From: a virus
DNA: 21,202 nucleotides
Reading direction: 5' to 3' (one strand)
Virus record (IMG/VR): IMGVR_UViG_3300031753_000043
Location: 1-21,202 of that record
A program made the position numbers and the translations under genes. A model generated the notes under the pieces. The model was not told the origin of the DNA, searched no databases, and saw only the letters and a list, made by a program, of their open reading frames with translations. Of the stretch, positions 1 to 18,966 are shown piece by piece. Position 1 is the stretch's first letter. Each line of letters opens with the position of its first letter.

Positions 1-192
1 GACCTGCGACCCGACCTGCGACCAGACCTGCGACCGGACCTGCGACCAGACCTGCGACCCGACCTGCGACTCGACCTGCGACCAGACCTGCGACCCGACC
101 TGCGACCAGACCTGCGACCAGACCTGCGACCGGACCTGCGACTCGACCTGCGACCAGACCTGCGACCCGACCTGCGACCAGACCTGCGACCC
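1..192. repeat. 12-bp tandem repeat, 16 units
   Basis: Sixteen head-to-tail 12-bp units follow the pattern GACCTGCGA plus a variable triplet. In + strand order the variable triplets are CCC, CCA, CCG, CCA, CCC, CTC, CCA, CCC, CCA, CCA, CCG, CTC, CCA, CCC, CCA, CCC. The first nine bases are identical in all 16 units. The array starts at or before position 1 and ends where GACGTC begins at 193. It encodes x-S-Q-V repeats on the minus strand. Confidence 0.97.
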
Positions 193-444
193 GACGTCTT
201 TTTTGCTCAAAATCTCTCGCAAAAAAGCCCAGGCCAAAATCCCGCCGAGCGTCGCTCCATAGGGGCTGCCCATGCGCAGGATCACCTGCGGCCGCTTGAG
301 ATTGCACAGCGCATAGGCGCGCAGCGCCGCCTCGGTCGCAGTCTCGAAATCAGCCGGCTTCGTGGACAGGCCGATCTCGATCCATTTCTCGCACCAGGCC
401 GGGAGCTGCGCAGCCTGAGCAGCGGTCATCGAGTCGATGCGCAT
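1..444 (-). CDS. x-Ser-Gln-Val repeat protein, 3' end beyond window
   Basis: This is the last visible gene of the leftward operon. It reads in from an ATG at 444 and stays open to the window edge (148 codons seen, no stop). Residues 1-84 form a non-repetitive domain rich in Trp, Ala and Leu ([20 protein letters not shown], then [12 protein letters not shown] near 58-68). Residues 85-148 are 16 uninterrupted tetrapeptides x-S-Q-V with x = Gly, Trp, Arg or Glu. The N-terminal '[16 protein letters not shown]' pattern recalls DUF6745-type proteins of actinobacteria and phages, which I recall also carry short x-x-Q-V repeats; that match is from memory and not proven. The function is unknown. The stop of the upstream gene (447-449) lies 2 bases before this start, so the two are probably co-translated. 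A start at Met6 is also possible. Codon 1 of each repeat varies and the other three codons are invariant even at the base level. Confidence 0.8.
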
Positions 445-446
445 GG

Positions 447-779
447 TCAGTCCGCGACGCGACGCACTTCCTCGCCGCGTTCCTCGACTTGGTGGATCTG
501 TCGGTACAGGGCCCCGGCTTCCAGCTTGATCGCGGTGTGTTCTTCGTGCGTCAGCGCGGTGGCCTCGATTACTTGGATGAAGCGCTCGGCATCGGCCGAC
601 CAGAGGCGCACTTTCGGCGCGGCCTTGGTCTGCACGATGCGATGCGCGTGCCCGGTGACTTCTCCATAGGCCAGGATCACGTCCCCCTTGGGCGTTTCAT
701 CCTTCGCATTTTTAGGCAGCGCATCGACGCGTAGCAGGAGCACATCGCCTTGGCGTAGCAGAATCGGTGCTTTCTTCAT
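447..779 (-). CDS. Conserved phage-type protein with YGEVTGHAH motif
   Basis: A 110-residue soluble protein. The start is set at the ATG at 779 because AAAGGAAC lies just upstream; the open frame extends further 5' but lacks a comparable ribosome site. The N-terminus reads [15 protein letters not shown] (9-23), followed by [15 protein letters not shown] (34-48) and [18 protein letters not shown] (77-94). This combination ('QGDVL...YGEVTGHAH...HxxIxLxxGxYR') is a family I recognise from phage and actinobacterial genomes, but no function is established for it. The paired histidines in GHAH could bind metal (inference). It lies between an acidic 110-residue protein and the SQV-repeat gene, in one leftward operon. 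Confidence 0.85.
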
Positions 780-811
780 TTCGTTCCTTTCGGTGGTTAA
801 AGTGAAAACTA

Positions 812-1144
812 CTACTCCTCGTTCTCCTGTTCCCTGATCTCGACGTACTCGCGCTCGACCTGCTCGCGCAGCCCCGGATCGTTCACCCGCCATTCGATGT
901 AGTCCTTACAAATGCGGCTAGCGTATTCCTGCGCTCGCTCGCACGAGTCAGGAGTGCCTGCGAACAGGCTGGCGACGATGAATGCCAGTTCGTCCGTATC
1001 GCAGTCGCCAACGAACTCGTCGAATGGTCCCTTCCGGTTCTCGGCCTCATCGCGTGCGCGTTCCTCGATGCGACTCTCGATATCGTTAAGCTCTGCATCC
1101 GTGAAGGTTGCCCGAGGGCCAGCATAGGCAGCGTGTACGGTCAT
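812..1144 (-). CDS. Acidic protein of unknown function
   Basis: A 110-residue, strongly acidic protein, probably helical in its second half (DELAFIVASLFAGTPDSCERAQEYASRI and a Glu-rich C-terminus ending EQENEE). The ATG at 1144 overlaps the stop of the upstream 68-residue gene in the sequence ATGA, and GGAGA lies 8 bases before it within the end of that gene. There is no recognisable domain. Its size, acidity and place in a leftward early operon next to the control region are compatible with a phage early protein that binds a host or DNA-binding partner, but that is only inference. Confidence 0.8.
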   Translation of the reverse strand: MTVHAAYAGPRATFTDAELNDIESRIEERARDEAENRKGPFDEFVGDCDTDELAFIVASLFAGTPDSCERAQEYASRICKDYIEWRVNDPGLREQVEREYVEIREQENEE

Positions 1145-1347
1145 GGCTTGTCTCCGACTACAAACGTAACAGTTTTTCCTGCGCTATCTCCAACAATATT
1201 CGAGCCACCACCGCCTCCACCGCCTCCACCAGCACCCGTGCACGTTATTTGGACGTTCGTAACGCCATCAGGTACATACCAAGTCAGCGACAGAGGATCA
1301 ATTTTCTCTGCCCACGACCGTAACAGGTTGGCTAACCATTTCCTCAC
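1141..1347 (-). CDS. Small protein with polyglycine segment
   Basis: A 68-residue product starting with GTG at 1347, preceded by GGAGA and overlapping the upstream stop in GTGA. Residues 1-20 are basic and amphipathic (MRKWLANLLRSWAEK). Residues 21-39 (SLTWYVPDGVTNVQITCTG) followed by about nine glycines resemble the beginning of the glycine-rich domain found in phage tail fibres; the same layout occurs in the large fibre of this window ([22 protein letters not shown]). The protein is much too short to be a fibre. It ends GDKP and its last codons hold the ribosome site of the next gene. It could be a captured fibre fragment or a small dedicated protein. Confidence 0.7.
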   Translation of the reverse strand: MRKWLANLLRSWAEKIDPLSLTWYVPDGVTNVQITCTGAGGGGGGGGGSNIVGDSAGKTVTFVVGDKP

Positions 1348-1421
1348 GGCTTATCTCCGTAGATGAATCCGAGGGTGACCACAACGGCTATGAATATCCA
1401 GAGCCAGATGATCGTGTCCAT
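1344..1421 (-). CDS. 25-residue single-pass membrane peptide
   Basis: The reading frame ATG (1421) to TGA (1344) encodes MDTIIWLWIFIAVVVTLGF followed by IYGDKP. It is nearly all one hydrophobic helix with an acidic residue at position 2 and a charged tail, as in small phage membrane proteins. It is the first gene after the strong leftward promoter, and its ATG falls 8 bases past the -10 element, so its mRNA should be leaderless or nearly so. Its stop overlaps the GTG of the next gene. No function can be assigned; a role in superinfection exclusion or membrane perturbation is only a possibility. Confidence 0.65.
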   Translation of the reverse strand: MDTIIWLWIFIAVVVTLGFIYGDKP

Positions 1422-1428
1422 GACTCGA

Positions 1429-1456
1429 AGTATACGGGTTTCCGTATCCTTGTCAA
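1429..1456 (-). promoter_or_regulatory. Leftward early promoter
   Basis: On the minus strand TTGACA (1456-1451) and TATACT (1434-1429) are separated by 16 bp. The expected transcription start is about 1422, next to the A of the ATG at 1421. The spacer contains operator 1. Confidence 0.85.
1432..1447. promoter_or_regulatory. Operator 1
   Basis: ATACGG-GTTT-CCGTAT is a perfect inverted repeat with 6-bp arms. Its core ACGG-N4-CCGT (1434-1445) lies in the spacer of the leftward promoter, with the last core base forming the first base of the -10 element. It should be bound by the adjacent Cro-like protein or a repressor. Confidence 0.75.
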
Positions 1457-1467
1457 CGGATATCCGT
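1456..1467. promoter_or_regulatory. Operator 2
   Basis: ACGGATATCCGT is a perfect 12-bp palindrome with the same ACGG-N4-CCGT core as operator 1. The centres are 22 bp apart, about two helical turns, which suits cooperative binding. It touches the -35 element of the leftward promoter. Confidence 0.75.
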
Positions 1468-1498
1468 AAATATTCTGTGCGGTAATCGGACAATCCAC

Positions 1499-1526
1499 TT
1501 GCGTCCATTGCGGATTCCCGTATAGT
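1499..1526 (+). promoter_or_regulatory. Rightward early promoter (cro promoter)
   Basis: TTGCGT (1499-1504) and TATAGT (1521-1526) are separated by 16 bp. The expected transcription start is 1533, exactly the A of the cro ATG, giving a leaderless transcript. Operator 3 fills the end of the spacer. Confidence 0.75.
1510..1521. promoter_or_regulatory. Operator 3
   Basis: GCGG-ATTC-CCGT matches operators 1 and 2 with one altered outer base (G for A). Its last base is the first base of the rightward -10 element, the same phase that operator 1 has with the leftward promoter. Confidence 0.65.
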
Positions 1527-1532
1527 TTACGC

Positions 1533-1712
1533 ATGACCCTCGATGATATCAAGCACCACTTCGGCGGATCGCTTAGGCAAGCAGCGAAGGCATTGAATCT
1601 GCCGATTAGCACGGTAGCAGACTGGCGTCGCGGTGTTCCATTCGGCAGGCAATGCGAGATTCAGATATTGACGCAGGGCAAATTACGCGCAGAGAAGCCG
1701 AATGGCAAATAG
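1533..1712 (+). CDS. cro: Cro-like helix-turn-helix repressor
   Basis: A 59-residue protein. Residues 1-12 (MTLDDIKHHFGG) and 13-32 (SLRQAAKALNLPISTVADWR) form the compact helix-turn-helix of P22-type Cro proteins: 'FGG..R.AA.AL......V..WR.G.P' followed by a short C-terminal strand (CEIQILTQGKL). Family members are 60-75 residues, so the size fits. It lies first after the rightward promoter, with no room for a Shine-Dalgarno, and it overlaps the next gene by 11 bases. It probably dimerises on the ACGG-N4-CCGT operators and represses both divergent promoters, including its own. No CI-type repressor is found next to it, so it could also be the sole regulator. Confidence 0.88.
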   Translation: MTLDDIKHHFGGSLRQAAKALNLPISTVADWRRGVPFGRQCEIQILTQGKLRAEKPNGK

Positions 1713-2352
1713 CTTACGCATGACCCGCGAGCAATTCGAGGCCCACGCCAAGCGCAGGCTGGCACGGCACGCCGAAGCTGAGTTCGCCAAGGAGATGGCC
1801 GCTCAAAACTTGGCGACACAATGGCTGGAGAGCGATCCAAAGCGGCCGATAGTGGCCAAGCAAACCGTGCCCAGCCATATCTCGGGCAGGCTCTGTCCGC
1901 TCGTGCTGCTCTGCCAGGCGCACGGATTGCCCGAGCCGCGCCCCGAATACAATTTCAGTCCCACCAGGGGATGGCGATTCGACTATGCCTTCGTGGATCG
2001 CAAGATCGCGTGTGAGGTTGAGGGCGGGATCTGGCGCCGGGGCGGTGGTGCGCATTCCCACCCGATGGGCATCGAGCGCGACATCGAGAAATACAACGCT
2101 GCAGCCGTCTTGGGCTGGCGCATACTCCGCGCTGCACCCGAAAAGCTTGGCTCGTTGATCCCATTGTTACAGGAGATGTTGCGACGACACCAGAACAGTA
2201 TCGCGAATACGCATTTGATCCTGGCCCTGATGATTGGGAGGCAACGTGGGCGTGGATTGATTGGCGCAATGGATTGTGTTATCCGCCACCCCATCGGAAA
2301 CAAGAACCGGAAGACCGGAATGGTTTGCTTAAGGTCATTTGCTGCGACGTAA
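1702..2352 (+). CDS. PD-(D/E)XK-type phage endonuclease
   Basis: The core at residues 80-160 is a phage-encoded nuclease: FSPTRGWRFDYAF (85-97, Asp94), KIACEVEGGIW (101-111, Glu105/Glu107), then RDIEKYNAAAVLGWRILR (126-143). The order 'WRFD...EVEGG...EKYN.A...GWR.LR' is that of a family of small restriction-endonuclease-fold enzymes, often annotated as VRR-NUC-like or Vsr-like and found beside phage replication genes. A role in recombination or branched-DNA processing is likely. The first start (1702) overlaps cro; an ATG at 1720 sits in a copy of the cro start context and is an alternative. After about residue 160 the sequence stops looking like the family; the last 56 residues probably result from loss of a stop at 2182-2184 (see the gene at 2181). 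Confidence 0.82.
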   Translation: MANSLRMTREQFEAHAKRRLARHAEAEFAKEMAAQNLATQWLESDPKRPIVAKQTVPSHISGRLCPLVLLCQAHGLPEPRPEYNFSPTRGWRFDYAFVDRKIACEVEGGIWRRGGGAHSHPMGIERDIEKYNAAAVLGWRILRAAPEKLGSLIPLLQEMLRRHQNSIANTHLILALMIGRQRGRGLIGAMDCVIRHPIGNKNRKTGMVCLRSFAAT

Positions 2353-2402
2353 TCTCGTTCTTTTGGGTATTGGGGAAGACAATGGCAAGGATAAAGCGAT
2401 GA
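2181..2402 (+). pseudogene. Small gene whose start codon reads GCG
   Basis: From 2181 to the TGA at 2400-2402 the frame reads (x)TTPEQYREYAFDPGPDDWEATW...AWIDWRNGLCYPPPHRKQEPED, ending VLGKTMARIKR. Its composition is far more protein-like than the overlapping nuclease tail, and its stop overlaps the next start in ATGA like most junctions here. A good CAGGAG lies 5 bases before 2181, yet 2181-2183 is GCG and no ATG, GTG or TTG is available upstream in frame after the stop at 2019. Changing base 2182 from C to T would give GTGA: a GTG start here and a TGA stop for the nuclease frame at 2182-2184. It is therefore either a recently broken gene, a sequence error, or a gene using a near-cognate start. 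I do not recognise the family. Confidence 0.6.
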
Positions 2403-2542
2403 GACGACTCTACTTTATCGACGGTGCCCTCTGGCTCGTGAACGGTCTGCTCTGGGCCAGCTACGCGCATGTGCCCAGCATGGCGATATTCTCAGCCATC
2501 GCGGCTGTCGTCTGCTTCGGCGTGGCAAGGCATGCGGAATGA
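2399..2542 (+). CDS. Small membrane protein
   Basis: A 47-residue protein starting MRRLYFIDGALWLVNGLLW, with two hydrophobic stretches (residues 10-21 and about 27-42) and Arg residues at the N-terminus, suggesting a short hairpin in the inner membrane. The ATG at 2399 overlaps the previous stop in ATGA and AAGGA lies 8 bases upstream. Its own stop overlaps the next start in ATGA. A longer form from 2339 is open but less likely. It has no assigned function. Confidence 0.72.
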   Translation: MRRLYFIDGALWLVNGLLWASYAHVPSMAIFSAIAAVVCFGVARHAE

Positions 2543-2853
2543 ATGGTGATCGTCACCTCCGAGCTTGGCGTAATTACGTCTTTGGTGATGCAATAAGCGT
2601 TGATTATTACGAATTCACCCACGATCACAAAGTCACTGCTGCTACTCTTGTCACTATGGAAACAGTAGACGAAGGTGGTCTGCGGGTTCCATTATTTAAA
2701 CTGACACCGAGCATGGCTCAGGAATTGATTGACGATCTCTGGCAGTGCGGTGTTAGACCATCCGAGGGATCAGGGTCCGCAGGACAGTTAGCCGCCGTGC
2801 AGAAGCACTTGGAGGATATGCGGTCGCTCGTTTGGAAGGCACCTAAGCCATGA
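2539..2853 (+). CDS. Conserved phage early protein
   Basis: A 104-residue protein. The C-terminal half (LFKLTPSMAQELIDDLWQCG at 53-72, then VRPSEGSGSAGQLAAVQKHLEDMR) matches a pattern I know from many phage early regions: 'LTP..AQ.LMD.LW..G.RPSEG.GS.G.....KHL.DMR'. No biochemical function is known for it. The N-terminal half (residues 10-45) is beta-rich with several Tyr and His. Base composition is lower in GC than most neighbours. Both ends overlap adjacent genes by four bases. Confidence 0.8.
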   Translation: MNGDRHLRAWRNYVFGDAISVDYYEFTHDHKVTAATLVTMETVDEGGLRVPLFKLTPSMAQELIDDLWQCGVRPSEGSGSAGQLAAVQKHLEDMRSLVWKAPKP

Positions 2854-3218
2854 TTGACGACGCCCTGCAATCCGCGATCGAGCGGGCACGAGCTCGAGGC
2901 CATGCCGGCGCGGAAGCTGCAGCCGAGCACGCGGATCTGGTTCATTCGAATTGGACAGAACGCGCGATCACGTATATCCACCTCTACGCGCGTCAGCATC
3001 CGTACCTGCGATGCGAACACTGCCGTGTCTGGGCCGAACACGATGGCCTTCCTCCGCCCACGGATAAGAGGGCATGGGGATGGGCAATTCAGGAAGCCAG
3101 GCGCCAAGGGCTGATCGAGCCTGCAGGCTACGAGGCCGCCATCTCGAGCAATGGCAGTCCCAAGGTGCGCTGGAAATCGCTGGTCTACAGCACGGGGTAC
3201 AGGGAGGATATCGAATGA
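2850..3218 (+). CDS. Winged-helix-like phage early protein
   Basis: A 122-residue protein. Residues 1-30 are Ala/Arg-rich helix; residues 38-75 (RAITYIHLYARQHPYLRCEH, then WAEHDGLPPPTD) and 76-112 (WGWAIQEARRQGLIEPAGYE, then SSNGSPKVRWKSLVY) follow a recurrent phage pattern in which an 'AWG..M..A...GLI...GY....SSNGSPK..W.SLVY' segment looks like a winged helix. DNA binding in replication or regulation is likely but not shown. The start overlaps the previous stop; AGGGAGG near its end serves the next gene. Confidence 0.78.
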   Translation: MIDDALQSAIERARARGHAGAEAAAEHADLVHSNWTERAITYIHLYARQHPYLRCEHCRVWAEHDGLPPPTDKRAWGWAIQEARRQGLIEPAGYEAAISSNGSPKVRWKSLVYSTGYREDIE

Positions 3219-3901
3219 CAGCTCGCAAACTTCATTTTCAGCGTATGTTGCGCTGCGGCGAAAGCGATGTGGCGTCGCATCCTCTGTTCCAAGGGGAAGG
3301 GGGCGGTTCGATTCCGACCTCGCCGCTCCAGTTTACTGTGATCCCGATCAACAAAGAGACAGCATTCCGAATCTACCGCGAATACCACTATTTGGGACGC
3401 CAGGACTTCGTTAATGTGGCAAGTTTTGGCGTCATGTGGGAAGGCTGCCTATACGGTGCGATCACTTTCGGGCCACCGGGCGCCAAGGAAACGGTCAAAG
3501 GTATTTTCGATACTGAAGAGCAATCTGGATTCTTTGAAATCAAACGATTGGCTATCGATAATCGATTTCCTAAAAACAGTGAGTCGAGGCTGATTCGGAT
3601 CGGTATTAAACTACTGCGACAACGTTTCCACGTCTTGGCCCTGCTAACTTACGCTGATCCGTCCGTGGGGCATGACGGGACTATTTACAAGGCTTCTGGC
3701 TTTCGATATCTGGGCCTGAGCGACAAGCGCCGCGAATTTGTGAAGGATGGGCGCGTGAAACAGCGCGGCGTTTCCAAAGGCGAAAATGGGAATTGGCGCG
3801 ACAAACCGCGCAAGCATGTCTTCGTCCGGTCCTTTGACCCCAGTATTGTGACAAATACCTTGCAACTGGGTTATCTCAAACGCAAGCAGGCTATAGCATG
3901 A
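3215..3901 (+). CDS. Mom-like GNAT-fold acyltransferase, putative DNA modification
   Basis: A 228-residue protein. The start at 3215 overlaps the previous stop and follows AGGGAGG. Motifs in order are HYLGR (58-62), GAITFGPPGAK (81-91), FEIKRLAIDN (107-116), SESRLIRIG (122-130), and TYADPSVGHDGTIYKASGF (145-163) followed by YLG. This set ('HYL.R', 'E..RL....P.N.ESR', 'YAD...GH.GT.Y.A..F.Y.G') is that of the phage Mu Mom family, GNAT-fold enzymes that modify adenine in phage DNA and protect it from restriction. The length is close to Mu Mom. An early-operon position fits protection of replicating DNA. The C-terminal 60 residues are very basic. The exact modification and whether the target is DNA cannot be read from the sequence. 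Confidence 0.8.
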   Translation: MTARKLHFQRMLRCGESDVASHPLFQGEGGGSIPTSPLQFTVIPINKETAFRIYREYHYLGRQDFVNVASFGVMWEGCLYGAITFGPPGAKETVKGIFDTEEQSGFFEIKRLAIDNRFPKNSESRLIRIGIKLLRQRFHVLALLTYADPSVGHDGTIYKASGFRYLGLSDKRREFVKDGRVKQRGVSKGENGNWRDKPRKHVFVRSFDPSIVTNTLQLGYLKRKQAIA

Positions 3902-4110
3902 GCGATTGGGACGATTGGTCGGCGCTCTGGCTCAAGGCCGACAAGCACCTGAAGACCGCCCAGGCCGCGGCTGCCCTGCACGACTTCGCCAATGCAGCCC
4001 GGGCATGCACCGAGGCCCAGGACATGCTCTGGCAGCTCCAGGAATGGTTCAGCGTGGCGATCGTTCAGGACCGACAACAGAAGCTTCCGGTCGACATGGA
4101 CCGCGAGTAG
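3898..4110 (+). CDS. Small helical protein of unknown function
   Basis: A 70-residue protein starting MSDWDDWSALWLKADKHLKT. It is Trp-rich at the N-terminus and predicted largely helical, with an Ala-rich middle (AQAAAALHDFANAARACTEA) followed by QDMLWQLQEWF; the layout resembles a two-helix hairpin. It overlaps the Mom-like gene stop in ATGA and is the last gene before the replication promoter, whose -35 lies inside its final codons. I do not recognise the family. Confidence 0.75.
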   Translation: MSDWDDWSALWLKADKHLKTAQAAAALHDFANAARACTEAQDMLWQLQEWFSVAIVQDRQQKLPVDMDRE

Positions 4111-4118
4111 GCTATACT
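4091..4118 (+). promoter_or_regulatory. Promoter of the replication module
   Basis: TCGACA (4091-4096) and TATACT (4113-4118) with a 16-bp spacer match the sigma-70 consensus closely. The transcription start is expected near 4125, giving a leader of about 80 bases before the TTG at 4206. Confidence 0.72.
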
Positions 4119-4127
4119 TTCATTGCC

Positions 4128-4166
4128 GGGACTAGCGGTAGCTCCGTTGTCCCGCCAGTACGGGAC
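4128..4166 (+). promoter_or_regulatory. Leader with two mutually exclusive hairpins
   Basis: GTCCC at 4149-4153 can pair with GGGAC at 4128-4132 (with inner CGG/CCG pairing, 4136-4138 with 4144-4146). Alternatively GTCCCG (4149-4154) pairs with CGGGAC (4161-4166) around a 6-base loop. Only one can form at a time. No T-run follows, so this is not a simple intrinsic terminator; it may be a switchable leader for the replication gene. Confidence 0.55.
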
Positions 4167-4205
4167 TTACCGGCACCTTTCCTTCTGCCTTACTGGAGGC
4201 GTCCT

Positions 4206-4871
4206 TTGCCGCGTGCACCGAATTACTTCAAGTTCCACCTTGGCGACTATGCCAAGGATTGCGAAGACCTAACCCTGCTCCAGCATGGGGCCTACCTAGC
4301 CCTAATTCGCTGGTACTACGCCACAGGCCGGCCAATTCCCGCCGATGGCGAACGCATCTATCGACGCTGCCATGCGCTCTCAGGCGAAGAAAAAGGCGCA
4401 GTTATGTTTGTTTTAACTGAGTTTTTCCAGCTTGACGGCCCGGTTTGGCGGCACCGCAGAATTGACCGCGAACTCGCTGAATGGTCAGACCGAAGTGACG
4501 AAGCTTCAGCGTCTGCCAAGGCAAGATGGAATAAAATCAACGATAATGGCAATGCGAACGCAATGCGAACGCAATGCGATGGCAATGCTAACCAGAACCA
4601 AGAACCAAGAACCAGAAGGTTAGGTTCTGTATCAGAGAATACGTTACGTCCGGTGCGGTTACGCGCTACGCGCTTACCGCCGGACTGGCGCCTACCCGAC
4701 GAATACAAAGACTTCGCCGTCAAAGTCCACCACCTCGAGCCCGAGCGTGCCGTCCGCGTATCCTTGGCCTTCCGCGATTATTGGATCGCCAAACCCGGGG
4801 GGCAGGGAACAAAGCTCGACTGGTTTGCGACGTGGCGAAACTGGATACGCAAGGAGACCCACGATGCTTGA
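4206..4871 (+). CDS. YdaU/DUF1376-like replication protein with DnaT-like C-terminus
   Basis: A 221-residue protein. The TTG at 4206 is chosen because GGAGG lies just upstream and the conserved domain begins at once: NYFKFHLGDYAKDCEDLTLL (6-25), QHGAYLALIRWYY (26-38), and IDRELAEW (86-93). This is the DUF1376/YdaU domain of phage replication proteins. Residues 114-140 are a low-complexity Asn/Arg linker. Residues 157-215 (LPPDWRLPDEYKDFA, then FRDYWIAKPGGQGTKLDWFA and WRNWIRK) match the C-terminal DNA-binding segment of DnaT-like primosomal proteins. It probably recognises the origin and recruits the host replicative helicase. The linker DNA carries iterons, as in lambda O. It has its own promoter and structured leader. 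Confidence 0.85.
   Translation: MPRAPNYFKFHLGDYAKDCEDLTLLQHGAYLALIRWYYATGRPIPADGERIYRRCHALSGEEKGAVMFVLTEFFQLDGPVWRHRRIDRELAEWSDRSDEASASAKARWNKINDNGNANAMRTQCDGNANQNQEPRTRRLGSVSENTLRPVRLRATRLPPDWRLPDEYKDFAVKVHHLEPERAVRVSLAFRDYWIAKPGGQGTKLDWFATWRNWIRKETHDA
4525..4628 (+). other. Candidate replication origin (iterons inside the initiator gene)
   Basis: An AT-rich stretch at 4525-4548 is followed by four tandem 11-bp units: GCAATGCGAAC (4549-4559), GCAATGCGAAC (4560-4570), GCAATGCGATG (4571-4581) and GCAATGCTAAC (4582-4592). Three 7-bp units of the AAGAACC type follow (4593-4613), and then an inverted repeat AGAACC/GGTTCT (4608-4613 with 4623-4628). Because 11 is not a multiple of 3, the repeat is not conserved in the protein, so selection must act on DNA. 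Lambda has its origin in the same place, between the two domains of O. Confidence 0.65.
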
Positions 4872-5118
4872 CTGCCCGAATTGCTCCGAGGATTCCTACG
4901 ATGGAGCTCTCTGTCGCGCTTGTGGGTTCACGGCCGGCAAGCCTAGGCCCGACGCCAAGCATCTTGCTGCGTCGCACAAGGAAGCCTCGTTACCGCCAGC
5001 AATGACCAAAGCCGAATGGGATCAGACCCGGGAGATTGGTCGATCAGTGCTTGCCAAAGCGAAAGCCATGCTGAAACGTGATGTTATACTTGACGTACCC
5101 AACGAGCGGTTAGCTTGA
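4864..5118 (+). CDS. Small zinc-ribbon protein
   Basis: An 84-residue protein. Residues 1-22 (MLDCPNCSEDSYDGALCRAC) contain CxxC at 4-7 and CxxC at about 17-20, a typical zinc ribbon or knuckle. The rest is a charged helical tail (ASHKEASLPPAMTKAEWDQT, then SVLAKAKAMLKRD). AAGGAG lies 7 bases before the ATG at 4864, which overlaps the replication gene stop by 8 bases, so the two are co-expressed. A role alongside the replication protein, possibly as a helicase-loading or accessory factor, is inference. Confidence 0.8.
   Translation: MLDCPNCSEDSYDGALCRACGFTAGKPRPDAKHLAASHKEASLPPAMTKAEWDQTREIGRSVLAKAKAMLKRDVILDVPNERLA
5082..5090 (+). promoter_or_regulatory. Possible extended -10 promoter
   Basis: TG-T-TATACT at 5082-5090 is an extended -10 element. 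No good -35 is seen at 16-17 bp. It would start transcription near 5097, just ahead of the DUF3800-like gene. Confidence 0.4.
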
Positions 5119-5895
5119 ATGCGCTCGAATGGTTCGGCGTTCGTGGCAATTATGGATGCCCTGCTGCGAGGCAGGCATGGAATTGTGGCCGTGATCGAGA
5201 CCTATTTTGACGAAAGCATGCGCGGAGACTTCACCTGCGTGGCTGGCTATGCGTTCGTCAAGTCCCGATGCAAACGATTTGATTCTGAGTGGGGCGAATT
5301 ACTGCGCTCTTACCACCTTCCATATTTCCGTATGTCAGCTTGTGCACATGGCAACAAACCTTTCGATGTTTTAAGCCCACAGCAGTGCATAAATGCAGAA
5401 AAGAGGGCGATAGGCCTCATCAACCAATACGCTTCGCACGGAATAGCGGTCGGTACGACTACTGCTGAATTTCAGCGGAGTTACAGTAAGTCGGAGCACA
5501 TATCGACCCCCTACGAGTTTTGCGTCTGGGCGATTCTCGCTGGAGTTCAGTCGTGGCTTGGCGATAGCGGAGTAAAAGGATCGGTCGCCTACTTTTTTGA
5601 GGCAGGACACAAACATCAAGGGCGCGCCAACATGATGATGAAAAAAATATTCGCTGCCCCAGAATTAAAAGCTAGATATCGGTATGCCGGTCACGCATTC
5701 GTGGATAAGGTACAGAGCAGACCCGCGCAAGCTGCCGACTTGCTCGCTTGGCAGTTCGCTACTGAATATCGAAGATTACGAGAAGGGAGGCCGTACGCCA
5801 GGAAGGACTACGCGAATCTTGTGCGGCTGCACCACGAGGTCGTGTTTCCGTCAATCACGCCCATTCCAGCCAGCGGTTACCGCCGCTTTACTTAA
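5119..5895 (+). CDS. DUF3800-like protein (cargo gene)
   Basis: A 258-residue protein. ETYFDESMRGDFTCVAGYAF (27-46) with the acidic YFDES, a segment with SEWGELLRSYHLPYFRMS at 56-73, and near the C-terminus DKVQSRPAQAADLLAWQFA match the layout of DUF3800 proteins: an N-terminal 'DESG' strand and a C-terminal 'Q.ADLLA' motif, thought to be an RNase H-like fold. The function of DUF3800 is not established; members occur in phages and in defence islands. The annotated ATG follows the previous stop directly; a GTG at 5191 would start the protein at the conserved core and is a real alternative. Base composition is more AT-rich than the replication and structural genes, and the gene lies between modules with its own possible promoter, as expected for a moron. 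Confidence 0.78.
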   Translation: MRSNGSAFVAIMDALLRGRHGIVAVIETYFDESMRGDFTCVAGYAFVKSRCKRFDSEWGELLRSYHLPYFRMSACAHGNKPFDVLSPQQCINAEKRAIGLINQYASHGIAVGTTTAEFQRSYSKSEHISTPYEFCVWAILAGVQSWLGDSGVKGSVAYFFEAGHKHQGRANMMMKKIFAAPELKARYRYAGHAFVDKVQSRPAQAADLLAWQFATEYRRLREGRPYARKDYANLVRLHHEVVFPSITPIPASGYRRFT

Positions 5896-5920
5896 GATGC
5901 AGTGTTCTTCTTTCTCTTAG

Positions 5921-5926
5921 TATAAT
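5921..5926 (+). promoter_or_regulatory. TATAAT element upstream of the morphogenesis operon
   Basis: A perfect TATAAT at 5921-5926 follows a pyrimidine-rich stretch. No convincing -35 lies upstream, so it is only a possible secondary promoter. Confidence 0.35.
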
Positions 5927-5944
5927 ATTGCCATGCTGAAAGGC

Positions 5945-5972
5945 TTGACACCTTAGAACAATCGGCTATACA
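5945..5972 (+). promoter_or_regulatory. Promoter of the terminase-head operon
   Basis: TTGACA (5945-5950), a 16-bp spacer and TATACA (5967-5972) form a strong sigma-70-type promoter in the intergenic region. The transcription start is expected near 5979. Confidence 0.78.
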
Positions 5973-5982
5973 GTCGCTCCCC

Positions 5983-6102
5983 ATGCGCGGAAATTGCCGC
6001 GTGGGAGTGCCGGATTGCTCGAGGTTCCCCGTGGAACATTCCTGCAAAGCCTTGATCTTGCGGGCGTATTTCCTACCAAGCCTATTTTCAATCATAGGCT
6101 AA
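5983..6102 (+). CDS. Possible 39-residue leader ORF
   Basis: An ATG at 5983, about 4 bases after the expected transcription start, opens a frame (MRGNCRVGVPDCSRFPVEHS..., ending PSLFSIIG) that stops with TAA at 6100-6102. The TTG of the small terminase begins 3 bases later in the same frame. Three cysteines in the first 21 residues are notable, but no domain is recognised. It may be a translated leader that couples to the terminase gene, or the leader RNA may simply happen to be open. Confidence 0.35.
   Translation: MRGNCRVGVPDCSRFPVEHSCKALILRAYFLPSLFSIIG
5986..6037 (+). promoter_or_regulatory. Structured leader of the morphogenesis operon
   Basis: There are two hairpins. CGCGG (5986-5990) pairs with CCGCG (5997-6001), extendable by CTCCC (5977-5981) with GGGAG (6003-6007) if transcription starts early enough. 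GTTCC (6024-6028) pairs with GGAAC (6033-6037) around a CCGT tetraloop. No T-run follows either. Confidence 0.5.
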
Positions 6103-6105
6103 CAA

Positions 6106-6453
6106 TTGGCCAACCCTCATCCCAAGCCCGGCCCAGGTCGGCCAAAGGGATCGAAAAACAAGACAAGCGAGGAGCTTCGCCAGCAAATGGTCGAGGCTCT
6201 GATCAAGGAAGGCGGCTCGAAAGCCTGGAGCCGTCTGGCGCAGGAAGACTTCCCCGAGTTCATGCGCCACTGCGCGAAGCTTATCCCGAGCGAGACTCAT
6301 GTCCGAAGTGAGTCTTCTGTCGCCATCAGCGACGTTCCGCTCGACGAGGCCCAGCGCGTCCTTGCCCAACGGGCTCTCAAAGCTGTACGGCCAGAATTGG
6401 TCGTCGATAACACCACAGAGGATTCTGGACGACCTCGCGTCGTTAACGAGTGA
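6106..6453 (+). CDS. Terminase small subunit
   Basis: A 115-residue protein starting with TTG at 6106, the first start after an in-frame TAA at 6100-6102. The N-terminus is Pro/Gly/Lys-rich (KPGPGRPKGSKNKTSEELRQ, residues 6-25), as in many small terminase subunits and DUF5681-like proteins, followed by a helical segment (LIKEGGSKAWSRLAQEDFPE) that usually carries the DNA-binding and oligomerisation region. It recognises the packaging site and works with the large subunit, whose frame begins inside this gene. It is short for a small terminase but within the family range. Confidence 0.78.
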   Translation: MANPHPKPGPGRPKGSKNKTSEELRQQMVEALIKEGGSKAWSRLAQEDFPEFMRHCAKLIPSETHVRSESSVAISDVPLDEAQRVLAQRALKAVRPELVVDNTTEDSGRPRVVNE

Positions 6454-7762
6454 GCAAGCCCTAGCGCTGCTCTACGATTGGTCATTCTGGGCGCGTCCTT
6501 CGCAGTTAGCCCCGCCTGAATTCGCCGCCGGCAACAAGACCTACTGGATTTTGATGGCCGGTCGTGGCTTCGGCAAAACTCGTGTCGGCGCCGAGCAAGT
6601 CCGTGCCTGGTCGCGCACATCGCGCTACGTCAATCTCATCGGTCCGACGCTTGACGATGCTCGAGACATCATGGTCGAGGGCGAATCCGGCATTCTCGCT
6701 ATCTGCCCCAAACACGAACGGCCGCGGTTCGTCGAGCGCCAGCTCCGTTGGCCCAATGGCTGCAAATCGCTGATTTTCACGGCTGACGAACCGGAGCGAT
6801 TGCGCGGCAAGCAGCACGAAAAGGTATGGGCCGAGGAAGTGGGCTCATGGCGCTATGCCGAATCTTGGGATCAACTCCAGTTCGGGCTAAGGCTTGGCAA
6901 CAGTCCGCAAGCGGTCATCACGACCACGCCGCGGCCGACGCAGATCATCAAGCAAATAATCGCCGATCCGTCGTGCGTGATCACGCGTGGCACGAGCTAC
7001 GAGAATGTTGCCAATCTTGCCGAGGCCTTCTACAAGTCTGTGGTGAGGCGTTATGAGGGAACACGACTCGGTCGTCAGGAACTCAATGCGGAATTACTCA
7101 CCGATAATCCTGCGGCCCTTTGGAATCGCACCGCTATCGATGAGCTGCGCGTGCTTGTTGCGCCTAAGCTTAAACGCCTCGTTATCGGGCTGGACCCGGC
7201 AGTTACTTCGCGCGAGGACAGCGCTGAGACTGGCATCGTCGCTGCCGGAATCGGGACCGACGACCACTACTACGTCATCGCCGACAAGTCGCTGATCAAC
7301 ACGCCTGATGCCTGGGCGAGACAGGCGATCAAGCTCTATCACGACGTCAAAGCTGATCGCATCATCGGCGAAGTGAACAATGGCGGCGATATGATCGAGT
7401 CGCTGTTGCGCAATGTCGATCCGAACGTGAGCTATGAGTGCGTGACGGCTACCCGCGGCAAGATGATCCGCGCCGAGCCGGTTGCGGCGCTATACGAGCA
7501 AGGACGCGTTCATCATGTGGGCTCGTTTCCAGAATTGGAAGATCAAATGTGCGACTACGATCCGCTCACTGCCGAGCGCAGTCCGGACCGCATGGACGCG
7601 CTGGTTTGGGCAATGACCAAATTATCAGACAGGACGGGAACCGCGATACTCGACTACTACGCAATGCAAGCTAAAGCAGCGCAGGCCGGCAACGCGCATA
7701 TTTTCCAGCCGCCAACGGTCCAGCGCACCGACGAAGGTCTGCAATTTCCGGTGAGGACATAG
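6299..7762 (+). CDS. Terminase large subunit
   Basis: A 487-residue DNA-packaging motor. The ATPase has Walker A AGRGFGKT (87-94), Walker B KVWAEEVG (175-182) and a coupling motif TTTPRP (208-213). The nuclease has acidic residues at Asp299 (VIGLDPA), Glu358 ([10 protein letters not shown]) and Asp433 (DRMDALVWA), the three expected metal ligands. The type resembles COG5323/Terminase_6-like large subunits. The start is uncertain: conserved sequence begins near residue 42 ([20 protein letters not shown]), while the possible starts are ATG 6299, GTG 6308 and TTG 6362, all deep inside the small-subunit gene and none with a clear ribosome site. It cuts concatemers and fills the prohead through the portal. 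Confidence 0.95.
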
Positions 7763-7763
7763 C

Positions 7764-8144
7764 ATGGCAAACGTAACATTCAAGGCGCCTGCAGGACTGT
7801 TCCAAGTCCTGGGGCGGAACGGGGTGTTCTATCCCGTTATTAATGGTGTGGTGACTGTGCCTGAAGGCGCAGCCCCGCCCGCACTGTCTGGCAACGCGCT
7901 CTTGCGCGGCTACAATCTTGGCGTCGGTGCGACAGGTGCAACAGGCCCTGTCGGCAATACCGGCGCGGTTGGAGGCACGGGCGGAACAGGCGGAACTGCC
8001 GCAGCCGGCGTCACAGGCGTGACAGGACCCACGGGCGCATCAGGCGGATCGAATACCGGCAACACGGGTGCCACTGGTGCAACGGGTGCCGGCACGACGG
8101 GCGCAACTGGGTCAACTGGGCCAACTGGCGCAACCGGACCATAA
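7764..8144 (+). CDS. Collagen-like structural protein 1
   Basis: A 126-residue protein. Residues 1-51 ([20 protein letters not shown] and so on, ending LLRGYN) are a small N-terminal domain shared with the next two genes. Residues 52-126 are Gly-x-y triplets dominated by GAT, GPT, GNT and GGT. GAGG lies 9 bases before the ATG. Threonine in the third triplet position is typical of bacterial and phage collagen-like fibres. It may trimerise to form a fibre attached to the virion through the N-terminal domain. Its position between terminase and portal suggests a head-associated role, which is inference. Confidence 0.82.
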
Positions 8145-8156
8145 CGGGACACTGCG

Positions 8157-8537
8157 ATGACTACAGACAATGTAACGCTACAAGCGCCGGCATCGCCGGC
8201 ACCGCAGCAAGTCCTGGGCAAGGACGGTGCGCTCTACCAAGTCGCATCCGGCCAGCTTGTGATCAGTGCTTACGCTGCCGATGCAAGCCTGCTGTTCGCG
8301 GGCTACAACCAAGCGACCGGAATGACTGCAGCCACAGGCGCGACTGGGATCACGGGCGGAACTGGGATCCAAGGCGCAACCGGAAATACGGGCGCAGCGG
8401 GCGCTGTCGGCGGGACTGGCGGGACTGGTGGAACTGGGGGCACGGGCGGCACTGGCGGAGTAACCGGCGCAGCGGGTGCAACGGGATTGAATGCAGCGAC
8501 AGGCGCAGCGGGTGCGACTGGCGCAACAGGAGCATAG
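8157..8537 (+). CDS. Collagen-like structural protein 2
   Basis: A 126-residue paralogue of the preceding gene. The N-terminal domain ([20 protein letters not shown], then [12 protein letters not shown] and LLFAGYNQ) aligns with gene 1 at 'VT..AP....VLG.(D/N)G..Y.V..G...........LL..GYN'. The C-terminal half is Gly-x-y triplets with a run of consecutive GGT triplets. The two genes are separated by only 12 bases. Duplication followed by divergence of the N-terminal domain, with the triplet region free to expand and contract, explains the pattern. Confidence 0.82.
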
Positions 8538-8539
8538 CA

Positions 8540-9013
8540 ATGGCGAACGAAGGCCCTCCGTTTTCTCAGAACATCGCGATTCAATCGCCGCTGCCGCAGA
8601 ATCCGAATGTCACCCTGCAACCGCCGTCTGGCATTAATGTGCTCGTTGCGGCCGATGGCAAGACGTACACGAGTTCGGGTGGCGTGTTCGTGCTGCCCTA
8701 TCTCGCGCTCGGGCGCGGCGGTGTGGCTGGCCTGCTCGAGCAGGGATGGAATCAGGCTGATGGCCCAGTCGGCGCGTTTGGGGCTACCGGCGCGGTCGGA
8801 ACTACGGGCGTTACTGGCGGCTCTGGCGCGGTCGGCAATACGGGCAGCACGGGTGCGACTGGCGCGATCGGTGTCAATCCGAATCCGACGGGTGCGACGG
8901 GTGCAACCGGATCGGCGAGCACGGGCGCTACCGGGGCAGTTGGTGGAACGGGCGGCACTGGATTTGCGCTGCCTCACTTCCCGCCTAATCTCGGCACCAA
9001 GACGGCGGTCTGA
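8540..9013 (+). CDS. Collagen-like structural protein 3
   Basis: A 157-residue protein and third member of the set. It has an extra N-terminal segment ([20 protein letters not shown]), then the shared domain ([20 protein letters not shown] and LLEQGWNQ) and Gly-x-y triplets from about residue 75, interrupted by VNPNP. Unlike its relatives it ends with a non-collagen tail, [14 protein letters not shown], that could act as a cap or trimerisation tip. It begins 2 bases after the previous stop. It is most likely a virion fibre or decoration protein. Confidence 0.82.
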
Positions 9014-9015
9014 TC

Positions 9016-9180
9016 GTGGACGCGAACGAGAAGATCGACGAACTCATGCGCAAGATGCGTGAGTTGGAGGCGCGTGTCGACAAGCTTGAGCAGCGGCAGG
9101 CGCATGCCTTTGGAGATCTTGCAGCCAAGCCGCCTAATGGTGGCACGCTGCATCTGCCGCAAAAGGGGCAGCCACGTTGA
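9016..9180 (+). CDS. Short coiled-coil protein
   Basis: A 54-residue product from GTG 9016 (or ATG 9046). Residues 4-30 (NEKIDELMRKMRELEARVDK and so on) show a heptad pattern of Ile, Leu, Met and Val, typical of a short coiled coil, followed by a Pro/Gly-rich tail ending LPQKGQPR. It lies between the collagen-like genes and the portal gene, 2 bases after the stop of the former. It could be a trimerisation partner of the collagen-like proteins or a head accessory protein; neither is shown. Confidence 0.62.
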   Translation: MDANEKIDELMRKMRELEARVDKLEQRQAHAFGDLAAKPPNGGTLHLPQKGQPR

Positions 9181-9250
9181 CGCCTGCTGCTCAGAACGAA
9201 ACCTTGCCGGGCGAGCACGTCTACACCGCCCGCGAATTCAGGCCGCACTG

Positions 9251-9251
<1 letters not shown>
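9177..9251 (+). CDS. Possible 24-residue ORF
   Basis: A TTG at 9177 overlaps the previous stop (TTGA) and the TGA at 9249-9251 overlaps the portal start (TGATG). AGGGG lies upstream. The peptide starts MTPAAQNETLPGEHVYTARE and ends FRPH. The linked overlaps at both ends favour a real coupled mini-gene, but the size allows chance. Confidence 0.38.
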
Positions 9252-12969
<3,718 letters not shown>

Positions 12970-12972
12970 ATC

Positions 12973-14181
12973 ATGCCTATCCTAGTCTCAGCCTTCCAAG
13001 TCAGGGCCTTCCAATTCACTGGTTTTCAGGAGGCCGGCGGTGCTGCGGGTGGCGGCGATATCCTGTGGTTCTGGTACGAGATGATCGCCCGGGCTCGCGC
13101 GAAGCGGGCCATCGCGGACAAGAAGAAGCGCAAGCCCGAGCGCGAAGATCTACCCGAGCCCTTGGTCGAGCCGGCCTATGCCGTGATGCGATTTGTCCTG
13201 GCTGCGCCCAAGCCGTTGCCGACGACGTTCCTCAAGCGTCTGCTGCCGGTCCAGAAGCCGCTGATCGACGAGGCGACCGAGCTCGCCGAATTCAAGCAAC
13301 TCATGGCATTCGTGCAAAGCCTGCCGCGACGCATGGCGAAACTAACGCGCCAGTATCGGACGGTTGAACTCAGCTTGCCTGCGCACGAGCGCCCGAACTT
13401 GATCGCGCTGCAGGACAGGCTGTCGCCCGTTATTGCGCGATTCCTGGCTGGTCAGGTGCCCAAGATTGCGCACCAGATCGAGCAGTTGAAGGCGCGATTC
13501 TGGAAAGCCGATCTGTCCGATGATGAAATAGACGCGCTTGACGCCGTGATCGCTGGCATCGACTTCACCGGCTGGGCGATCCTTGCCGGCGATGTTGAGC
13601 CGGTCTTGGCTGAAGCGACCAAGGATGGCGCCCACGAAGCCCTGCGTGCGGTGGGCTTCGACACCACGACCGACGCTTACGACGCCGTCAATCAGGATGC
13701 GCTCGACTATGCCGAAGATCGTGCGGCCGAGATGGTCGGCATGAAGCGCGGAGCCAAGGGCAAGCTGAGGCCCAATCCTCGCGCTGAGTACCAGATCACC
13801 GAGTCTACCCGCGATGACATTCGCAGCCTTGTCGGCGATGCGCTCAAGGAAGGCTGGTCGACCGACACGCTCGCCAAGGCCCTGATGGATTCCAATGCCT
13901 TCAGCGCTGAGCGTGCGCAGTTGATCGCCCGCACCGAGGTCATCCGCGCCAGCAATCAGGGCACGCTGCAGGGATTCCAGGCCTCCGGCGTGGTGCTCAA
14001 GAAGGAATGGACCACGTTTGATCCCTGCCCGATCTGCGAGGAAAACGAGGAGCAGGGGCCGATCGATTTGGACGAAGATTTCGCAAGTGGCGACGACGCG
14101 CCACCCGCGCATCCCAACTGCAAGTGTGCGCTCGTCGGGCTTACGGCGCTCGATACGACTGAAACTGAAACGGAGCAATGA
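12973..14181 (+). CDS. Mu gpF-like minor head protein with AFQ-repeat N-terminus
   Basis: A 402-residue protein. The N-terminus SAFQVRAFQFTGFQEAGG (6-23) is the repeated AFQ motif normally seen in very small phage proteins; here it is fused directly to a head protein. The middle is helical. The C-terminal 75 residues (ERAQLIARTEVIRASNQGTL, then TFDPCPICEENEEQG and AHPNCKC) are the phage Mu F-like head morphogenesis domain, with Cys352, Cys355, His380, Cys383 and Cys385 placed to bind zinc. It is probably a portal-associated minor capsid protein injected or assembled early. It sits between the fibre and protease genes as expected for a head module. Confidence 0.88.
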   Translation: MPILVSAFQVRAFQFTGFQEAGGAAGGGDILWFWYEMIARARAKRAIADKKKRKPEREDLPEPLVEPAYAVMRFVLAAPKPLPTTFLKRLLPVQKPLIDEATELAEFKQLMAFVQSLPRRMAKLTRQYRTVELSLPAHERPNLIALQDRLSPVIARFLAGQVPKIAHQIEQLKARFWKADLSDDEIDALDAVIAGIDFTGWAILAGDVEPVLAEATKDGAHEALRAVGFDTTTDAYDAVNQDALDYAEDRAAEMVGMKRGAKGKLRPNPRAEYQITESTRDDIRSLVGDALKEGWSTDTLAKALMDSNAFSAERAQLIARTEVIRASNQGTLQGFQASGVVLKKEWTTFDPCPICEENEEQGPIDLDEDFASGDDAPPAHPNCKCALVGLTALDTTETETEQ

Positions 14182-14514
14182 ATGGCCACTTATACGCCCA
14201 AGAATCTTATCGGCCCGTCTGCGGCCATTACCTCGTCGGTCACGGCCTACAGCTCGGCGACGAACAATTGCACGCCGGTCGTGCGCACGATTCTGTGCAC
14301 AACCTCGGCTGCGTCCCTGACGCTGACGGTCGCCTTCGGTGCAGACGCGGCGGGTACGCGCGTGATCAATGCCGTCGCGCTGACCCAGGCTGTGCCCTAT
14401 GTGCTCAATGGCTGGCTGATCTCGCTGACCAATAACGCACATGCGATTGACGTGACTGGAACCGGCACGGGCACGCAGCAATTGTGCAATATCAGCGGCT
14501 ACGAATTCGCGTGA
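14182..14514 (+). CDS. Small beta-rich structural protein
   Basis: A 110-residue protein starting directly after the previous stop. It is rich in Thr, Ala, Ser and Val and looks like a single beta-sandwich (VVRTILCTTSAASLTLTVAF at 33-52, then GADAAGTRVINAVALTQAVP). This composition resembles small phage virion proteins of the 'tail/decoration' type. No specific function is recognised. Its stop overlaps the next gene start in GTGA. Confidence 0.75.
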   Translation: MATYTPKNLIGPSAAITSSVTAYSSATNNCTPVVRTILCTTSAASLTLTVAFGADAAGTRVINAVALTQAVPYVLNGWLISLTNNAHAIDVTGTGTGTQQLCNISGYEFA

Positions 14515-14723
14515 TCAAGCGCACCTTCACCTTCATTTGTCCGGTCTGCCGCAAGGTATACCGCACGGACGAAGGCATTGGCGAGCCTTGCTGCACGGGG
14601 CCTTCCGAGATGCGCGATGACCATGAGCTTACGATCATGCATCTGCATGGCATCGACCACACGGATATTGATCCCCAGGTCGGTGAAGCGCGGGCCAATG
14701 GTCCGCTGATCATCCATGCTTAG
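14511..14723 (+). CDS. Small cysteine/histidine-rich protein
   Basis: A 70-residue product from GTG 14511, overlapping the previous stop. FICPVCRKVY (8-17) gives a CxxC and EPCCTGP a second Cys pair, a zinc-ribbon layout. The second half has many His and Asp (MHLHGIDHTDIDPQVG). It may be a metal-binding accessory protein of the head module. No family is recognised. Confidence 0.68.
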   Translation: MIKRTFTFICPVCRKVYRTDEGIGEPCCTGPSEMRDDHELTIMHLHGIDHTDIDPQVGEARANGPLIIHA

Positions 14724-16647: not shown

Positions 16648-16699
16648 GCCGCATTCGATAACCTCAACCTAACGCAACAGAAGCATCAGGAGTTGCATT

Positions 16700-18283: not shown

Positions 18284-18299
18284 ATTCATTTTCAGACGA

Positions 18300-18363
18300 C
18301 CGGGGCGGTGCGGAGCGTGATCTATCTCCTAAACGCGCATTACTGTTGCCGTCCCGGATTTTT
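18300..18363 (+). terminator. Terminator-like stem with long loop after the capsid gene
   Basis: CCGGGGCGG (18300-18308) pairs with CCGTCCCGG (18349-18357), nine pairs including one G-T, and is followed by ATTTTT. The 40-base loop is long for a terminator, so a partial terminator or an RNA-processing site is also possible. The next gene starts 15 bases after the right arm. Confidence 0.5.
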
Positions 18364-18371
18364 GGAGTGAT

Positions 18372-18956
18372 ATGGCTTCACTGGACTTGACCACTCTGCC
18401 GAACGTGAAAGGGTGGCTCAACATCAGCAACACGAATAACGATGCCTTGTTGTCGCGGCTGATCTCGTCCGCGTCACAGTTCGCTGAGTCGTGGTGCTCG
18501 CGTCAGTTCAACGTTGCGACCTACACGGAGAATCGCAACGGACTGGGCGGAACGGTCATGATGCTGCTCAATCAGCCGATTACGGCAGTTACGTCGGTCA
18601 CGATCAACGGCATTATGATCCCGCCGCAGCCACCGTTTTCTGCCACGTTCACGTCGACTGGCGGCGTTCCGGGCGGCTATGTGTTCGACGATAAGCGCAT
18701 CATGCTCTACGGCTGGTCGTTCTGTCGTGGCTTCCAGAACGTGCAAATCGTCTACACGGCAGGCTTTGCGACCGCGCCCTATGACTTGGAGCAGGCCGTG
18801 ATCGATATTGTCGGGGAATGGTTCAAGTATCGGGACCGCATCGGCAAGGTGAGCGAAGGGATCGAGGGGCAGGCAATCATGTTCACGCAGGCCCAGGTTC
18901 CGCCGCGGGCGCTGGCAGTGTTGCAGACCTACAGGCAGGTAACGCCAATTTACTAG
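18372..18956 (+). CDS. Head-tail connector protein (HK97 gp6-like)
   Basis: A 194-residue protein preceded by TTGGAG. The N-terminus (LTTLPNVKGWLNISNTNNDA, then LLSRLISSASQFAESWCSRQ) and the C-terminal helix (LEQAVIDIVGEWFKYRDRIG) are characteristic of the gp6-like connector family, which forms the ring beneath the portal. The middle carries a beta region (VMMLLNQPITAVTSVTINGI) and FDDKRIMLY. Its place directly after the capsid gene and before the gp10-like gene supports a neck role. Confidence 0.88.
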   Translation: MASLDLTTLPNVKGWLNISNTNNDALLSRLISSASQFAESWCSRQFNVATYTENRNGLGGTVMMLLNQPITAVTSVTINGIMIPPQPPFSATFTSTGGVPGGYVFDDKRIMLYGWSFCRGFQNVQIVYTAGFATAPYDLEQAVIDIVGEWFKYRDRIGKVSEGIEGQAIMFTQAQVPPRALAVLQTYRQVTPIY

Positions 18957-18966
18957 GAGAACCGTC

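Follow-up and report, generated by a model that had tools for sequence, protein, structure and literature searches.

A divergent phage control region with a P22/N15-type Cro and two predicted leaderless operon heads

How would a phage control two divergent operons when a Cro-like gene heads one of them and no CI gene heads the other, and do both messages begin at their start codons? The locus that raises these questions lies in IMGVR_UViG_3300031753_000043, a record of 21,202 bases whose full length is referred to here as the window. The record is classed linear and therefore may be a fragment of a phage genome, which we consider probable; its left end falls inside the left operon. At that very end, bases 1-195 hold a 16-copy tandem array of the 12-bp unit GACCTGCGACCA, which may be the reason that the assembly stopped there.

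Predicted promoters and operators of the divergent region

Bases 1422-1532 form a 111-bp intergenic region between two divergent operons. The predicted features of this region and the genes flanking it are as follows.

447..779, minus strand: left gene 4, 110 aa, phrog_27831 (unknown function), ATG at 779 with AGGA
812..1144, minus strand: left gene 3, 110 aa
1141..1347, minus strand: left gene 2, 68 aa, GTG start, glycine-rich
1344..1421, minus strand: left gene 1, 25-aa hydrophobic peptide, predicted leaderless start
1429..1456, minus strand: PL, sigma70-like promoter, -35 TTGACA at 1456-1451, 16-nt spacer, -10 TATACT at 1434-1429
1434..1445: predicted operator 1, ACGGGTTTCCGT, exact ACGG-N4-CCGT; shares base 1434 with the start of the PL -10
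1456..1467: predicted operator 2, ACGGATATCCGT, exact ACGG-N4-CCGT; shares base 1456 with the start of the PL -35
1499..1526, plus strand: PR, sigma70-like promoter, -35 TTGCGT at 1499-1504, 16-nt spacer, -10 TATAGT at 1521-1526
1510..1521: predicted operator 3, GCGGATTCCCGT, one mismatch to ACGG-N4-CCGT; shares base 1521 with the start of the PR -10
1533..1712, plus strand: cro-like gene of the P22_Cro family (PF14549, phrog_409), encoding 59 aa, with a predicted leaderless start
1702..2352, plus strand: right gene 2, 216 aa, phrog_503 (unknown function), start overlapping the end of cro

On the minus strand, the PL -10 is followed by TCGAGTC (7 nt) and then by the ATG at 1421; on the plus strand, the PR -10 is followed by TTACGC (6 nt) and then by the ATG at 1533. 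PL carries 11 of the 12 sigma70 consensus bases and was the top sigma70-like match in a promoter scan of bases 1-20000, with a score of 13.9 at gap 7 on hexamers that may not be those the host's sigma factor reads. The same reservation attaches to PR, which scored 8.4 at gap 6, the highest of the gaps scored; its -35 is poor (3/6 consensus), and it was absent from the scan list that ranked PL top. A further strong promoter-like site, TCGACA-16-TATACT, was observed at 4091-4118 ahead of a DUF1376 gene, with no ATG at leaderless distance.

The predicted operators are closely fitted to these promoters. In operator 1 alone the symmetry reaches 16 bp without a mismatch, as the inverted repeat ATACGG-N4-CCGTAT (1432-1447). 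The last base of each promoter's operator is the first base of its -10 (operator 1 for PL, operator 3 for PR), and operators 1 and 2 lie 22 bp apart, centre to centre. To this the analysis added that, on the minus strand, the last base of operator 2 is the first base of the PL -35; as operator 2 abuts the -35, the 22-bp step resolves into 6 + 16, with one operator against each PL hexamer. We infer that operators 1 and 2 sit on about the same helix face, two turns apart. Predicted operators thus touch three of the four promoter hexamers. The sequence-only reading of this locus had proposed two divergent promoters with 16-bp spacers and three matching operators, two of them sharing a base with a -10 and the third at 22 bp; both proposals are exact to the base.

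When the 111-bp intergenic region was shuffled 20,000 times with its dinucleotides preserved, 7 shuffles contained two exact same-arm N4 palindromes and none (0/20,000) contained a third within one mismatch besides the two exact ones; a chance origin for the operators was rejected on these figures. The search of the whole window for the operator consensus, which that reading had also suggested, gave a divided answer: the 12-bp consensus at one mismatch is common in the window and near chance (16 matches vs 11.1 expected), and only the triple cluster exceeds it. The rarity belongs to the operator cluster, not to single consensus matches. A search of viral contigs for the left-promoter/operator pattern matched one contig, in which no Cro relative was found.

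The Cro-like protein and the gene starts of its family

The Cro-like protein matched PF14549 over residues 6-56 at 41.3 bits, against a curated cut-off of 30.2, and matched phrog_409 at E 2e-15. Its modelled fold (pLDDT 92.9, from 9 aligned sequences) had N15 Cro as its top Foldseek matches (probability 1.00, TM 0.82, rmsd 1.3 Å, best E only 8.3e-3) and also matched N15 Cro on its consensus operator DNA (6on0, TM about 0.8); the P22 Cro structure 1rzs was found by sequence at E 8.5e-4. The model has the predicted all-alpha P22/N15 Cro fold. The lambda Cro family, which we take to be PF09048, was absent from the eight Pfam families that matched at E up to 1, in a search whose HMMER filters may drop weak matches. 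These matches identify the gene, by sequence, as a bona fide member of the P22_Cro family, outside that of lambda Cro, and the Cro-like gene claimed from the letters alone is therefore present. HTH_3 was found in the record only inside cro, and weakly. A single-protein search of viral contigs returned no relatives of the window Cro; its nearest relative among phages, at 45.6%, is in Acinetobacter phage BUCTT20, and no DNA match to the switch was found in the phage collection.

We then scored 28 gene starts in the window, all with a valid start codon. A promoter score of at least 8 at a distance of 5-8 nt was found only for 1421 (13.9) and 1533 (8.4), the next start reaching 2.8. The only starts lacking a Shine-Dalgarno (SD) match of at least 3 nt were 1421, 1533, and 20149, though a 3-nt match is weak evidence, and at least 4 nt were matched at 13 of the 28.

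To place these starts in their family, P22_Cro-like genes were collected from viral contigs, phage records, and bacterial genomes. Of the 66 frames that matched the Cro model at E 1e-4, two (L124 and L209) were excluded because no start codon lay near the expected position and 12 as duplicates with identical first 45 residues, P22 itself being folded into mEp235; this left 52 genes from 51 loci, as L153 gives a second, TTG-started frame. With start codons assigned by model, a promoter score threshold of 8, and textbook hexamer frequencies, the promoter-to-start gap is bimodal: 20 of the 52 genes lie at 6-8 nt and 16 at 22-34 nt, with one at 10 nt, one at 45 nt, and 14 without a promoter of that score. 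Shuffled upstream regions gave a mean of 0.8/52 at gap 5-8 (maximum 4 in 200 rounds) against the 20 observed, and control ORFs from the surveyed loci gave 1/466, in a mechanically picked set that includes ORFs that are not genes. A 4-nt SD match was present in 2/20 leaderless-type genes (L099 and L187) and in 19/32 others (Fisher p 4.5e-4, a value that ignores kinship), including 11 of the 16 at gap 22-34 nt. Family membership follows the Cro model: 15 of the 20 leaderless-type genes lie above the Pfam P22_Cro cut-off and two below it (L088, 22.3 bits; L149, 23.4), while L200, L204, and L210 are outside the Pfam scan.

As calibration, the cro gene of PY54 has a gap of 6, and lambda PRM, likewise at gap 6, has no SD and misses the threshold with a score of 7.0; for lambda PR the gap is 24, with AGGAGGT. 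At the annotated start of PY54 cI, which is leaderless by RACE, no gap from 3 to 13 scores above 3.5. Since lambda PRM and PY54 cI both fall under the threshold, the geometric test misses some leaderless genes. In PY54 (L117), the best leaderless geometry, at 2510-2530, belonged to an in-frame ATG lying 12 nt into the annotated cI. On the left-hand side, a start with leaderless geometry (score at least 8) was seen at 6 of the 20 leaderless-type loci, namely PY54, phiKO2, L210, L088, L153, and the window, and at 3 of the rest, in a scan that took any ATG/GTG frame of 20 codons and in which some matches may not be genes. A tree built from 51 of the proteins had poor resolution, with only 2 of its 48 inner branches starred; on it the leaderless layout needs at least 12 changes, and the independent-pairs test had only one pair on starred branches.

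A fixed operator offset from the -10 across the family was considered and set aside as weak. N4-centred palindromes with at least 4/5 pairs lie 3.5-5.5 bp before the -10 at 5/20 leaderless-type loci only (the window, L167, and L187 at 5.5 bp, L165 at 4.5, and L053 at 3.5), other single offsets occur at 0-2 loci each, and the palindromes of L053, L165, L167, and L187 differ in sequence from the window operators. We treat the shared offset as a lead.

Judged by geometry, the P22_Cro-like family seems to have two regular layouts, leaderless cro being one of them, and the window's PR is predicted to belong to the leaderless-type class. A leaderless start of both operon-head genes is well supported by the sequence evidence, because of the gap geometry, the two starts without SD, and a family survey far above chance. 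A general study of leaderless genes in bacteria exists (PMC3160421); among open-licence PMC papers we found no survey of leaderless cro genes, the cases found being PY54, phiKO2, and CP-933P. Leaderless messages are reportedly spared by kasugamycin (PMC5230787).

Known switches and the gene opposite cro

Leaderless, even doubly leaderless, phage switches are already known. According to PMC4488713, both the cI and cro messages of PY54 are leaderless, with RACE ends at the AUG, and PY54 Cro binds a 16-bp palindrome; phiKO2 Cro likewise binds a 16-bp site (PMC4997575). The two papers report a single site for each Cro and no repression of its own synthesis. In prophage CP-933P, the paaR2 message is reported leaderless by RACE, and the Cro-like YdaS binds both promoters (PMC8630535). 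The sequence-only reading had likened the two leaderless promoters to lambda cI transcribed from PRM. Its leaderless interpretation stands on the -10-to-ATG geometry, the absent SD, and the survey, but the lambda parallel overlooks the closer precedent in PY54.

The window resembles the PY54, phiKO2, and N15 immB switches in having a P22_Cro-family Cro (for N15, by fold). PY54 Cro belongs to PF14549, and a nine-row profile headed by the window Cro aligned to it with a probability of 98.2; by BLASTP with single sequences, the window Cro aligned with neither PY54 Cro nor phiKO2 Cro. The divergent intergenic region is short in each case, measuring 111 bp in the window against 104 bp in PY54 and 80 bp in phiKO2. 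The PR gap of 6 nt equals that of PY54 cro and lambda PRM, the PL gap being one more at 7 nt, so that by geometry and absent SD both divergent starts would fit the doubly leaderless layout of PY54. Predicted operator 1, a perfect 16-bp palindrome, has the length reported for the Cro operator of PY54 and phiKO2. The differences lie in what faces cro, a repressor (CI or CB) in PY54, phiKO2, and N15 and a 25-aa hydrophobic peptide here, and in the operators, where three are predicted, one of them on the PR -10, in place of the single site away from the cro promoter reported for PY54 and phiKO2.

Three predicted operators between divergent promoters also recall the lambda-type switch: at lambda OR, PRM and PR diverge with three operators, and cI is leaderless with a gap of 6 nt and no SD. 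Lambda cro, however, has a leader with AGGAGGT and belongs to another Cro family with cI beside it, whereas the window cro is predicted leaderless and no cI was found in the record. CP-933P paaR2/ydaS shares the short divergent region and the leaderless left transcript but differs in that its left gene is a repressor and, in the account consulted, only the left transcript is described as leaderless. Pseudomonas phage AH02 has a PF14549 Cro (gp40) opposite small hypothetical genes, and no S24, tyrosine integrase, or serine recombinase was found in its 39-kb record; its cro differs in having a leader with GGAG and a best promoter at gap 27. Judged on sequence, the window differs from these known switches by combining four features: Cro as the only repressor seen at the divergent region, predicted leaderless starts at the head of each operon, a left gene that is not a repressor, and predicted operators on three of four hexamers.

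Opposite cro, the 25-aa peptide contains a single hydrophobic stretch, with a Kyte-Doolittle mean of 2.4 over 19 residues. The GTG start of left gene 2, which is preceded by GGAG, overlaps the stop codon of the peptide, and the stop of left gene 2 overlaps the ATG of left gene 3 likewise, with GGAG; because such overlaps run through successive junctions of the left operon, the 25-residue frame is probably translated. Two of these junctions, 1132-1162 and 1335-1365 on the minus strand, share GGAGAyAAGCCrTGA, a repeated stop-start coupling module through which both upstream proteins end in GDKP. For left gene 3, Pfam and PHROGs gave nothing at E up to 1, and neither the peptide, the glycine-rich protein, nor the other left-operon proteins had relatives among the relatives' loci compared.

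Several further observations concern the rest of the record. The PR -10 and cro start (1522-1559) recur at 1709-1746, with 38 nt at 76% and a 17-nt core, TAGyTTACGCATGACCC, that differs at one base; as the relative L084 supports (by eye) a start of right gene 2 at 1702, this repeat lies within coding sequence. The right operon includes a Mom-family DNA modification gene at 3218-3901 (PF25680, E 5.6e-31; phrog_1384, E 9.4e-31). At 7764-9013 and 11227-12969, several glycine-rich, collagen-like GATG-repeat proteins were seen by eye amid terminase, portal, and head genes.

We also examined which relatives lack a CI-type repressor. L002, related through its terminase (70% identity), has a leaderless-type cro opposite small genes, beyond which RecT- and exonuclease-like genes lie leftward (by eye); its leftward gene has AAGGAG and its rightward cro is leaderless-type, so that one side only would be leaderless. 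At 6950-7090 of L002, two -35 boxes face each other in the inverted repeat TGTCAA-N6-TTGACA. L088, related through the gene after cro (60% identity), also has a leaderless-type cro (phrog_409 E 8.4e-9, its 22.3 bits being below the Pfam cut-off), and its left GTG frame at gap 6 scores a marginal 8.3. No S24 domain, tyrosine integrase, or serine recombinase was found in the 21,202-base record, L002 (27 kb), L088 (38 kb), EBPR podovirus 1 (36 kb, partial), or Vibrio phage Val-yong3 (42.5 kb), the last of which has an HTH_3 protein far from cro. The divergent neighbour of the window cro is thus the peptide with its small genes, not a prophage repressor, and the earlier description of a left operon headed by a membrane-type peptide rather than CI agrees with the frame at 1344-1421 and its hydrophobic stretch. 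That no CI gene is adjacent is true for the record; as the record is probably a fragment, a more distant CI gene may lie in the rest of the phage genome.

Proposed control of the region and alternative explanations

We propose, with a probability of about 0.6, that the sequence encodes a bidirectional early control region of a tailed phage under an N15/P22-type Cro, with both messages leaderless and the left operon early. On entry, host sigma70 polymerase would fire PL and PR, and both messages would begin at, or a few bases from, the AUG and be translated without a Shine-Dalgarno sequence. Accumulating Cro dimers would bind the 16-bp operators. The two well-matched sites touching both PL hexamers would shut PL first and tightly, and the one imperfect site on the PR -10 would shut cro's own promoter later and more weakly; with an operator on each PL hexamer and a single imperfect one on PR, Cro should shut PL before PR. 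The left operon, with a small membrane peptide at its head, would be expressed early and controlled by Cro, and would not be a CI operon. In this account we infer where transcription starts, that Cro binds the predicted operators, which promoter closes first, when the operons are expressed, and what the peptide does. Autoregulation through three sites would run counter to PY54 and phiKO2 Cro, which are reported to be single-site and not self-repressing.

The main rival to this proposal is a temperate phage with an ordinary CI/Cro switch, its CI gene in the missing part of the genome, its three operators serving both repressors, and its PL resembling lambda PL. A 21.2-kb linear record is often a fragment, and this one breaks off within the left operon, at a tandem array; moreover, the relative L053, with the same leaderless-type cro layout, has an S24 repressor adjoining cro and a serine recombinase, and many bacterial leaderless-type cro loci have a divergent helix-turn-helix repressor-like gene (by eye, uncounted). 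Classical members, however, place CI directly across from cro, a place that is taken here, and neither tyrosine integrase, serine recombinase, nor S24 domain was found in the record or in those of L002 and L088 (27 and 38 kb). We regard this explanation as possible but rather unlikely.

Two other explanations seem to us improbable, and about equally so. The messages may not be leaderless, with starts further upstream and the left protein in a 54-residue form from 1508; the frame is indeed open to an ATG there, and a promoter-like TTGATA-17-TAAACT is listed near 1552-1524. That site matches 9/12 consensus bases against 11/12 for PL, no SD precedes 1421 or 1533, in contrast to the GGAG at the following starts of the left operon (1347 and 1144), and the gaps of 6-7 nt are those of proven leaderless genes or one more. 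Alternatively, the palindromes may be sites of a host or other phage regulator, with the Cro-like protein binding elsewhere, and the operator arrangement of the window was indeed found in none of the relatives examined. Studied Cro proteins as a rule bind beside their own gene, as is established, and N4 palindromes overlap the cro -10 region in L053, L165, L167, and L187, although their offsets vary and, the window included, they make up 5/20 loci.

Beyond the proposed Cro-controlled region, we offer tentatively, and as a doubtful proposition, that this phage, L002, L088, EBPR podovirus 1, and perhaps Vibrio phage Val-yong3 form a CI-less, probably virulent class in which a P22/N15-type Cro alone runs early control. 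Leaderless heads would then be a selected, family-wide device, and early operons leaderless in both directions would be a distinct design, not a relic of lambda PRM. A leaderless start would allow an operator, a -10, and a start codon to share about 25 bp, and 70S ribosomes would translate both operon-head genes from the very onset of infection, free of SD competition.

If the leaderless prediction is true, leaderless cro would be no curiosity of PY54; it would be a regular layout of a widespread repressor family, predicted for 20 of 52 genes. It would make testable why phages place leaderless messages at a decision point and whether small early proteins thereby escape host translational control. 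It would also provide a sequence rule (a -10, 6-7 nt, AUG, and no SD) for finding such switches, including those of CI-less phages.
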